Origin: Gordonia spumicola
Lineage (GTDB): Bacteria > Actinomycetota > Actinomycetes > Mycobacteriales > Mycobacteriaceae
Assembly: GCF_009932475.1 (NCBI RefSeq)
Contig: NZ_BJOV01000005.1
Location: 1,302,001 to 1,366,000 of the forward strand
Direction: 5' to 3'
DNA: 64,000 nucleotides
This document shows positions 33,826 to 55,800 of the stretch, in pieces. How positions within the stretch are numbered: position 1 is the first letter of the stretch; each line of letters starts with the position of its first letter. The position numbers and the translations under genes were made by a program. The notes beneath the pieces were generated by a model that saw only the letters and a list, made by a program, of their open reading frames with translations, was not told where the DNA came from and did no database searches.

Positions 33826-34026
33826 CTCCCCCTCTGTCGTGTCGCGAGCGACGCCTGAGAGATTCGGCTGCGGGTGACCGCGGCCTTTCACCGTGGGCGG
33901 ACGGGTCGACCCGTCACTTTCCAGAGACGCCGGCAGTTGCCACGGTCCCGGGTGCCTGAGAGTTTGACGGAGAGGTGTTGCTCCTTCGGCGGCCGTCCGA
34001 GATGATCGGACGACGCTCTCCCGCGG
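33826..34026 (-). ncRNA. Tandem glycine riboswitch (gcvT element)
   Basis: Read on the minus strand the leader contains two copies of the glycine aptamer. The first begins GGGAGAGCG and has CCGAAGGAGCAA and ACTCTCAGGCA; the second has CTCTGGAAAG, a GTGAAAGGC, and AATCTCTCAGGC, ending with GACAGAGGGGGAGG. These are the conserved elements of both aptamers and their short linker. The riboswitch ends about 48 bases before the gcvP GTG, so it probably controls ribosome access or termination there. A cooperative ON response to glycine is known for the class. Confidence 0.93.
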
Positions 34027-34043
34027 CGTAGCGGCGCACGGAC

Positions 34044-53957: not shown

Positions 53958-54015
53958 GTCCCAGGGAGTGGCGGGGTTCGGGACGCCCGATCGACGAGGT
54001 GACCGATCGCTTCGT

Positions 54016-54261
54016 TCACCCGAAGCCGACTGAGTAGGAGAGGCGTCGGCGGGTGAGGAAGTCGACGAAGGCGTGGATGCCGCCGGCGGAGTCGGTGCGG
54101 ATCAAGATCGACTTGCCCGGCCGTGACCCGATGTCGGGGATCTGGTCGAGGATCAGCGTGGTGAGGGTGATGCGGTCGGCGGCGGTGTTGGCGCCGGCGT
54201 TGCCGGGCCGCAGGATCGCCGCGAAGGCCTCCCCGGTGCCGTCTGTGCTGACTGTGAGGAT
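54016..54261 (-). pseudogene. IS1380-family transposase remnant, middle part
   Basis: Read on the minus strand, ILTVSTDGTGEAFAAILRP then GNAGANTAADRITL, followed by KSILIRTDSAGGIHAFVDF and YSVGF, is the central region of IS1380-type transposases. It joins the normal N-terminal phrase LTVSTDGTG directly to the central EAFAAILRP, so an internal deletion had already occurred. Translation stops at 54016 by a frameshift; an alternative frame continues VNEAIGHLVDR for a short way. The first ten codons lie on the other side of the IS110 element. Confidence 0.8.
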
Positions 54262-54542
54262 GGATCTACCACCACAACGAAATGCCTGCAGGATCGGTGT
54301 CGCGGTGGTGGGCTGTAGCTGACGATCCTCGGATGTGACCCTTGCTCTGACTGGCTCCGTGCCTTCGACGGGACTTGTCCATTCGGGGATTGTCGGCACC
54401 GGCCCGGTCGGAGCGACTGGCCTGATCAGGAGCTTGACCGACCGCCGTGTAGCAGCACCGCGATCGTGTCCCATCACAGTCCCGCCGTGACTCCTCCCGG
54501 ACCGGAACCACCTGTTGGTCCCACCGGATATGGAGGAACGCA
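54262..54542 (+). ncRNA. Candidate bridge RNA region in the IS110 left end
   Basis: IS110 elements of the IS621 type are known to encode, in the non-coding end upstream of the recombinase, a structured bridge RNA that pairs with target and donor DNA. This end is long enough (281 bp) and has RNA-like pairing: AGGATCG (54290-54296) with CGATCCT (54323-54329), and a CCTGATCAGG palindrome at 54421-54430. GATCCTC at 54324-54330 is also the reverse complement of the rejoined target junction GAGG-AT-C, though with the stem just named this may be chance. The exact RNA ends are not known. Confidence 0.5.
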
Positions 54543-55592
54543 ATGACCAGTCTGACGGAAATCGTGGACGTCGTCATCGGAGTCGACACACACGTCGACA
54601 CCCACACCGCCGCCGCGGTGCACGCACGCACCGGAGCGGTGCTCGATCAGCTCACCGTCGCCACCACCGTCGACGGCTACCAACAACTGCTCGACTTCGC
54701 CGACGGGCGCTGGCAGCTGCGGGCCTGGGCGATCGAAGGCACCGGCGGCCACGGCGCCGGACTAACCCGGACGCTGGTCGCTCGTGAGGAACTGGTGATC
54801 GAACTCGACCGCCCCGAACGAGCGCACCGACGGCACGGGGCGAAGTCCGACCCGTTGGACGCGATCCGCGCCGCCCGCGAGGCCCTGTCCCGACCCGAGT
54901 TGGGAACCCCTCGTGCGGCCGGTGACCGGCAGGCGTTGTCGGTGCTGCTCGCGGCCCGCCGCTCGGCAGTCGACGGCTACACCGTGGCAATGCGGCAACT
55001 GTTCAGCCTGGTCATCGCCGCCCCCGAACCACTCCGCGACGCCCTGCGCGGACACCCACTACCGGAGATGGTGACGATCGCCGCCAAGCTCCGCACCCGA
55101 TCCAGCTGGGACACCGAAACCACCACCACCGCAACAGTGCTCAAGACATTGGCTCGTCGAGTGCAGGGTCTGCGGAAGGAAGCCGACGAGCACGAAAAGC
55201 AGATCCTGAGCATCGTCAAATCCTGGCGGCCGGATCTCCTCACGCAACTCGGCGTCGGTCCGATCGTCGCCGCCACCGTGCTCTGCGCGTGGTCGCACCC
55301 CGGCCGAGTCCGATCCGAAGCCGCGTTCGCGATGCTCGCCGGCGTCGCGCCGATCCCCGCCAACAGTGGGCAGGTCACCACCCGCTACCGGCTCAACAGG
55401 CACGGCGACAGACAGCTCAACCGCGCCCTGCACACCGTCGTCCTGTCCCGACAACGCTACGACCAGAGCACCCGCGACTACACCGCCCGCCGCACCGCCC
55501 AAGGAAAGACACCACGCGAGATCAAACGCTGCCTCAAGCGCTACATCGCCCGCGACCTCTACCGCCTACTCGAGCACCCCACGATTGCTTGA
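54543..55592 (+). CDS. IS110-family DEDD recombinase (transposase)
   Basis: The 349-residue protein has the N-terminal RuvC-like domain with acidic residues D15 (IGVDTHVDTH), E65 (AIEGTGGHG), D103 and D106 (GAKSDPLDAIRAA), a coiled middle, and a C-terminal Tnp domain with the nucleophile serine near residue 275 (IPANSGQVTTRYRLNRHGDRQ split there). A GGAGG ribosome site lies six bases before the ATG. All key residues are present, so it looks active. Confidence 0.95.
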   Translation: MTSLTEIVDVVIGVDTHVDTHTAAAVHARTGAVLDQLTVATTVDGYQQLLDFADGRWQLRAWAIEGTGGHGAGLTRTLVAREELVIELDRPERAHRRHGAKSDPLDAIRAAREALSRPELGTPRAAGDRQALSVLLAARRSAVDGYTVAMRQLFSLVIAAPEPLRDALRGHPLPEMVTIAAKLRTRSSWDTETTTTATVLKTLARRVQGLRKEADEHEKQILSIVKSWRPDLLTQLGVGPIVAATVLCAWSHPGRVRSEAAFAMLAGVAPIPANSGQVTTRYRLNRHGDRQLNRALHTVVLSRQRYDQSTRDYTARRTAQGKTPREIKRCLKRYIARDLYRLLEHPTIA

Positions 55593-55642
55593 CATCCATA
55601 GGAGCGTCCGATCATGTCCGGCGGCACCGTCTGCGGCCAGGA

Positions 55643-55674
55643 ATCTGCGGATAGAACACGATAGAGTTCTTCAC
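55643..55674 (-). pseudogene. IS1380-family transposase remnant, first ten codons
   Basis: On the minus strand a GTG followed by KNSIVFYPQ and the first two bases of an Ile codon runs into the IS110 right end. Together with the remnant at 54016-54261 it makes one frame split by IS110. A purine-rich GGGGAGGAG lies upstream as a ribosome site. The sequence beyond (55675-55800) is unusually A+T-rich and is probably the end of the IS1380 element or other acquired DNA. Confidence 0.7.
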
Positions 55675-55794
55675 CAGAAGGTGCTCCTCCCCCCTGCTCG
55701 CGATTATCGTTCGCAATAACAATCATTGCAGGTCAGAGCATATTTATTCATGAAATCAGCACGTCAGACGCATTCAGCGATGAAAGCCCGAGGC

Positions 55795-55800
55795 TAGGGT
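55795..55800 (+). promoter_or_regulatory. -10 element TAGGGT of a leaderless start
   Basis: TAGGGT ends six bases before the ATG at 55807. A GTG three bases upstream is an alternative start. Confidence 0.45.

Follow-up and report, generated by a model that had tools for sequence, protein, structure and literature searches.

In this work we have analysed a stretch of 64,000 nucleotides from Gordonia spumicola (the window) and conclude that it holds an insertion sequence of the IS110 group which, as the best explanation of the findings as a whole, very probably encodes a bridge RNA in its left end. The element belongs to the IS110 group, the bridge RNA is well supported, and the ends, target and donor proposed by a first-pass annotation of the same DNA have been corrected. 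The argument is built from sequence comparison, namely the boundaries of the element, the covariation of RNA stems, the covariation of guides with targets among relatives, the empty sites of these relatives and a promoter-like arrangement at the joined ends.

Ends of the element and its recombinase gene

The gene at 54543-55592 on the forward strand is an open frame of 349 amino acids encoding a DEDD recombinase. Its product contains the domains DEDD_Tnp_IS110 (PF01548) and Transposase_20 (PF02371), both exceeding the Pfam cut-off, which agrees with the IS110-type recombinase of the first-pass annotation. When the protein was compared with solved structures using phmmer (E up to 1), only the transposases of IS621 (E 0.0031) and ISCro4 (E 0.0066) matched. 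In the alignment with the IS621 chain, which is a weak protein match (E 0.0031), S275 stands opposite a serine. We take this serine to be S241 of IS621 and, from motifs, presume the acidic residues to be D15, E65, D103 and D106.

The ends were derived from relatives. Seven Rhodococcus plasmid records contain the element at 75-78% DNA identity; five of them represent one and the same insertion, leaving three sites, for each of which one record was read. These three insertions lie in unrelated surroundings and have in common a left edge, TGACTGTGAGGAT, and a right edge ending in CATAGGAGCGTCC. With fixed patterns the same two edges were found in 41 further loci, giving 45 in total including the window and the three Rhodococcus sites. 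Because relatives in unrelated sites have the same two edges, we place the element at 54253-55608 on the forward strand (1356 bp). It could equally be placed at 54252-55607, since the C at 54252 and the C at 55608 represent the same shared core base. The GAC preceding TGTGAG was assigned to the target, as it varies together with the guide (L012, L032 and L046). Comparison of empty and filled sites in relatives indicates that the net gain on insertion is TGTGAG...GCGTC and that nothing is duplicated.

Empty sites were found in two genomes with several copies. When the element is removed from the five filled sites of G783, four of them give one and the same 18-mer; a search of that genome with a loose pattern allowing 0-12 free bases found 35 places, and 32 of these are exactly this 18-mer. 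In G050 the left target with its C occurs uninterrupted 45 times, compared with 0 for a reversed-pattern control, and this fixes the left side; of 30 copies read, 23 go on with CA and 5 with CC, like the two filled sites. For the Rhodococcus copies, near searches for empty sites among plasmids found none. Several copies are hosted by a dispersed repeat, GGTCGAGTAGC...CGTATCGAGACC (the left flanks of L028, L031, L029 and L015, and L075-L104); its exact 12-mer occurs 45 times in G050, and G783 has such a repeat of its own.

The first-pass annotation had bounded the element by AT at 54260-54261 and AT at 55643-55644 and described a clean insertion in a whole IS1380 frame, taking the perfect rejoining of that frame as proof. 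Excision of the AT-to-AT stretch does keep the minus-strand frame open, but so do 285 of 442 joins made at shared dinucleotides within the two end neighbourhoods, the proposed join among them, and the AT/AT ends are thus not singled out. Moreover, the relatives end at other bases, an outcome which the annotation itself had said would speak against its ends; their empty sites agree with ends of the 54253-55608 type, and IS1380 relatives hold about 0.5 kb more between the flanks. We consider the AT/AT ends almost certainly wrong. Their left AT is the end of a -10-like hexamer inside the element and their right AT lies about 35 bp outside it. A frame which rejoins by chance can evidently mislead the mapping of element ends. 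Because these ends were wrong, so were the target GAGG-AT-CTGCGG and the donor GGCCAGGA-AT-GGATCT derived from them. The corrected target consists of the left flank CTGTGCTGAC (54243-54252, forward strand), whose ten bases were compared with the left guide, and the right flank CGATCATG (55609-55616, forward strand); the corrected donor is GGAGCGTC joined to TGTGAGG. The layout with a longer left than right end remains valid, but the non-coding lengths are 290 bp on the left and 16 bp on the right rather than about 281 and 51 bp.

Predicted structure and guides of the bridge RNA

We aligned 24 left ends, chosen among those in hand. In their consensus fold the stem of the target loop is long, there is a small distal hairpin, and an outer stem encloses a second loop. 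On this fold 92.1% of the cells in pairs are paired, compared with 85.9% after shuffling, and 23 of 46 pairs have changes on both sides, compared with 11.3±1.9. The covariation measure is 0.280 against 0.164±0.009 for shuffled alignments, where the same alignment both yielded and scores the structure. Structures slid along the alignment are only 30-43% paired. The window's own sequence at 54266-54490 folds with a z of -2.60, and 3 of 200 shuffles were as low. These results support a structured RNA in the left end which, judged from the alignment, would have two internal loops and an IS621-like fold. Its target-binding loop and stem are predicted at 54318-54397 on the forward strand, with arms at 54318-54341 and 54373-54397. 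The RNA family search suggested by the first-pass annotation was carried out with Rfam 15, which may lack such a family, at gathering thresholds over the whole window and gave no match at the left end of the element. Rfam matched the window only at 33933-34033 on the reverse strand, where it recognizes a glycine riboswitch aptamer (54.7 bits). A 7-bp stem between 54290-54296 and 54323-54329 had also been noted; its letters, aggatcg and cgatcct, are indeed complementary, but it is not the predicted pairing. We rejected it as the main fold: in the prediction the partner of 54323-54329 is the far side of the target-loop stem, and it is the latter stem which covaries.

Do the loops of this RNA match the sites in which the elements are found? 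The left target guide was defined as the ten bases 3' of TGACYC and compared with the ten bases of the target which precede the junction, and the right guide as the bases before ACTTG, which are the reverse complement of the core and the right target. In the window these are TTGCTCTGAC at 54342-54351 and GACGGG at 54367-54372, both on the forward strand, the final G of the latter standing opposite the core C. Among loci L001-L074, 18 lacked the left-donor-guide motif, being partial or more distant, and L062 lacked the right-guide anchor. Of the 55 loci kept, fixed patterns located the left target in 45 and the right target in 49. At positions 1-7 of the left guide the mean match was 0.76, compared with 0.346±0.043 when guides were reassigned among targets (45 loci, 25 guides), and at positions 1-5 of the right guide it was 0.637, compared with 0.334±0.035 (49 loci, 30 guides); in both tests none of 20000 shuffles, which ignore relatedness, reached the observed value. 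By position, the target is tracked by bases 2-9 of the left guide and not by the first (0.12 against 0.25), and position 10 is constant. On the right, the signal is weak at position 5 and absent beyond it. With the left register displaced by one or two bases the values are close to the shuffled mean, so that the signal belongs to one register. On the right, displacement by -2 yields a somewhat raised value (0.353 against 0.278±0.035; 84 of 5000) and the other three shifts do not.

Two loci fail the fixed left register, L012 (4/10) and L044 (2/10). The left-guide test omitted L004, L014, L017, L034 and six rows with swapped ends, which are described below; by eye, the left guides of L004, L017 and L034 match 9/10, 9/10 and 8/10. 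Three pairs of entries (L047/L169, L046/L173 and L054/L177) are the same place twice. L012 comes from Billgrantia endophytica, outside Actinomycetota, with 51% protein identity; its right guide matches 5/5 and its left guide is off register. L001 and L002 are 98.2% identical, occupy different sites and are one base apart in each target guide; the guides of L002 match their own target well (9/10 left, 5/5 right) and those of L001 less well. Left targets ending in CTGAC (L007, L010, L035, L039, L041, L043 and L051) seem often to contain the TGA stop of a gene, as judged by eye.

It might be argued that the repeat of target-side letters within the element is no RNA guide but a DNA motif for recognition or regulation which was inherited together with the ends. 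The final GAC of guide and target is nearly constant, so that part of their likeness is trivial. However, the signal lies in the variable positions 2-7 and in a single register, the sense of the right guide is reversed, which pairing with both strands would require, and the stems contain compensatory changes. We regard a DNA motif as very unlikely. The comparisons support instead a first loop which, across the family, would be complementary to the target.

The second loop appears to be complementary to the donor. Its left donor guide, AGGAGC (54428-54433, forward strand), has the same letters as the right end of the element, and its right donor guide, TCACAG (54474-54479, forward strand), is the complement of CTGTGA in the left end. 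Where the right end has AGAAGC, the loop has AGAAGC too (L004, L044, L045, L046 and L047), and loop and end agree, as AGGAGC or AGAAGC, in the rows tabulated. Paired changes also connect the right donor guide with the left end: TTACAG with CTGTAA in L004 and TTACCG with CGGTAA in L017. In the right donor guide of L012 one G stands opposite T. These variants are few and tied to lineages, and the comparison is descriptive, made by listing and not by permutation. An IS621-like bridge RNA in the left end, as the first-pass annotation had proposed, is thus borne out by structure covariation and guide-target covariation in relatives, with the guide-donor changes as a descriptive addition; the loops pair with the corrected target and donor.

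The target ends in AC in 41 of 45 loci, in TC in 3 and in GC in 1, and the donor ends in TC in 44 of 45, L056 being the exception. The lineage of the window thus appears to join a target ending in AC with a donor ending in TC, with a core alike in one base, C, in most loci.

A promoter-like pair also seems to span the circle junction, as judged by consensus. The -35-like TTGACA (55589-55594, forward strand) overlaps the stop codon of the recombinase gene, the -10-like hexamer is GAGGAT (54256-54261, forward strand), and in the joined ends they are 17 nt apart, which is a consensus match only. The arrangement TTGAC-17/18-GANNNT scores best in 36 of 45 junctions. According to the mechanism we propose, the element would leave its site as a circle, and its joined ends, GGAGCGTC followed by TGTGAGG, would form a promoter transcribing the bridge RNA. 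Of the two internal loops of this RNA, the first would bind the target: its left guide would pair with the bottom strand over up to nine bases, and its right guide with the top strand, over the core C and about five bases. The second loop would pair with the joined ends of the element, AGGAGC with the left donor and TCACAG with the right donor. The recombinase, presumably bound to this RNA, would exchange strands after the shared C, and insertion would therefore duplicate nothing. The copy in the window may be, or may once have been, active in this way.

The copy in the window and its IS1380 surroundings

The element lies within an IS1380-type sequence on the reverse strand, with a left part at 53991-54243 and a right part at 55622-55797. 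The left part, left of the gene, matches DDE_Tnp_1_4 just above the cut-off, as the IS1380-type surroundings of the first-pass annotation would require, and both parts are recognized from relatives. In two IS1380 relatives from the same genus the parts which match the flanks are separated by 502 and 521 bp, with match edges differing by up to 20 bases. Because of this additional sequence in the relatives, we read the IS1380 copy as a remnant which is interrupted by the IS110 element and in addition lacks about 0.5 kb. As the origin of this gap we considered a deletion between short repeats of GTGCCG; it is a guess and we do not claim it. A 7-bp direct repeat, CCGTCTG, occurs at 54239 and 55627. 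The first-pass annotation had also suggested looking for an empty site, and no clean one was found for the window's own insertion: the joined flanks aligned with three IS1380 relatives only in fragments, from which nothing was drawn.

The left guide of the window's copy, TTGCTCTGAC, matches the target CTGTGCTGAC in 7 of 10 bases and the right guide matches 3 of 5 beyond the core. This left guide fits the targets of seven other loci better than its own, and the window's target is better fitted by the guide of L033. The match is thus moderate and alone would not convince; it is the family as a whole which carries our inference. Possible reasons for the moderate match are drift, imperfect landing of the element or replacement of a flank. 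Could the copy in the window be a stranded member of a bridge-RNA family, with its guides or flanks changed or one flank replaced, and therefore poor at excision and re-targeting? Its own guide-target match is weak and IS1380 sequence is missing between its flanks. When the genome itself was searched with the recombinase gene, one match was obtained at E 0.001, which makes the element single-copy. The preferred target has no exact match in this genome and is not enriched there, with 29 sites at up to 2 mismatches compared with 22 for the reversed pattern. On the other hand, the recombinase frame is open with its domain matches and motifs kept, and the stems, both donor guides and the junction promoter are kept as well. 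We regard a stranded copy as a serious possibility, its chances falling somewhat short of even.

Related systems and a lineage with swapped ends

The element resembles IS621, whose bridge RNA is encoded in a long left end and has two internal loops (PMC11208160, PMC11208158). Both have the DEDD and Tnp domains, an RNA in the long left end, a left guide for the bottom strand and a right guide for the top strand, a promoter at the joined ends (by consensus in our element) and insertion without duplication. They differ in the core, which in IS621 is CT in both target and donor (PMC11208160, PMC11208158), a trait of IS621 and not of the group as a whole, whereas the present element has AC in the target and TC in the donor. 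In addition, the protein match to IS621 is weak (phmmer E 0.0031) and the right guide of our element covers about five bases and the core. Much closer are the IS110 elements on Rhodococcus plasmids (NZ_CP040720 and four identical sites, NZ_CP145320 and NZ_CP106983), with 75-78% DNA identity over most of the element, the same ends and the same RNA layout, and with different guides and insertion sites. ISEc21, an IS110-type element with a seekRNA, has an upstream non-coding region needed to move, a joined-end promoter and no duplication (PMC11187229); it is a different element with a different target, compared here by description. The IS1111 group shares the DEDD recombinase and a guide RNA, but according to PMC11208160 that RNA is encoded in a long right end, downstream of the gene, whereas in our element the RNA is upstream and the right end has 16 bp.

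The ends are swapped in a lineage consisting of G601, with five copies, and its relatives (L045, L053, L057-L059, L167-L172, L176 and L178). Here the sequence at the left junction reads as the reverse complement of the left donor plus right target, and that at the right junction as the reverse complement of the left target plus right donor, while the order of RNA and gene is kept. Both swapped ends occur in 12 of these 13 loci, in seven genomes and with five distinct left guides; L172 has the right one only. In this lineage the left flank matches the right guide and the right flank the left guide, by 6-9 of 10 bases for left guides and 4-7 of 8 for right guides (12 loci, counted without permutation). 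The weak rows are L170 (6 and 5) and L178 (right guide 4). In a tree, from which L019 was skipped and in which L015, evidently in a wrong frame, has a very long branch, a single branch (99/97, with the bootstrap not settled) separates eight swapped-end rows from all others.

Since the ends are swapped while RNA and gene keep their order, the RNA alone would define which donor end is left and which is right. We think it probable that the ends of elements in this RNA-guided family do not depend on the orientation of the gene, and that the lineage of the window joins an AC target with a TC donor through a core of one base. Neither swapped ends nor a core alike in one base are mentioned in the available parts of PMC11208160 and PMC11187229 or in the reports found by a limited literature search. 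The swapped-end lineage may serve as a natural experiment on whether or not the donor is recognized by the RNA alone. More generally, this mostly actinobacterial subfamily, with its exact ends, guides and targets, would allow guide-target rules to be read from genomes and then tested; the natural rules suggested here are up to nine bases on the left, about five on the right and one shared core base.
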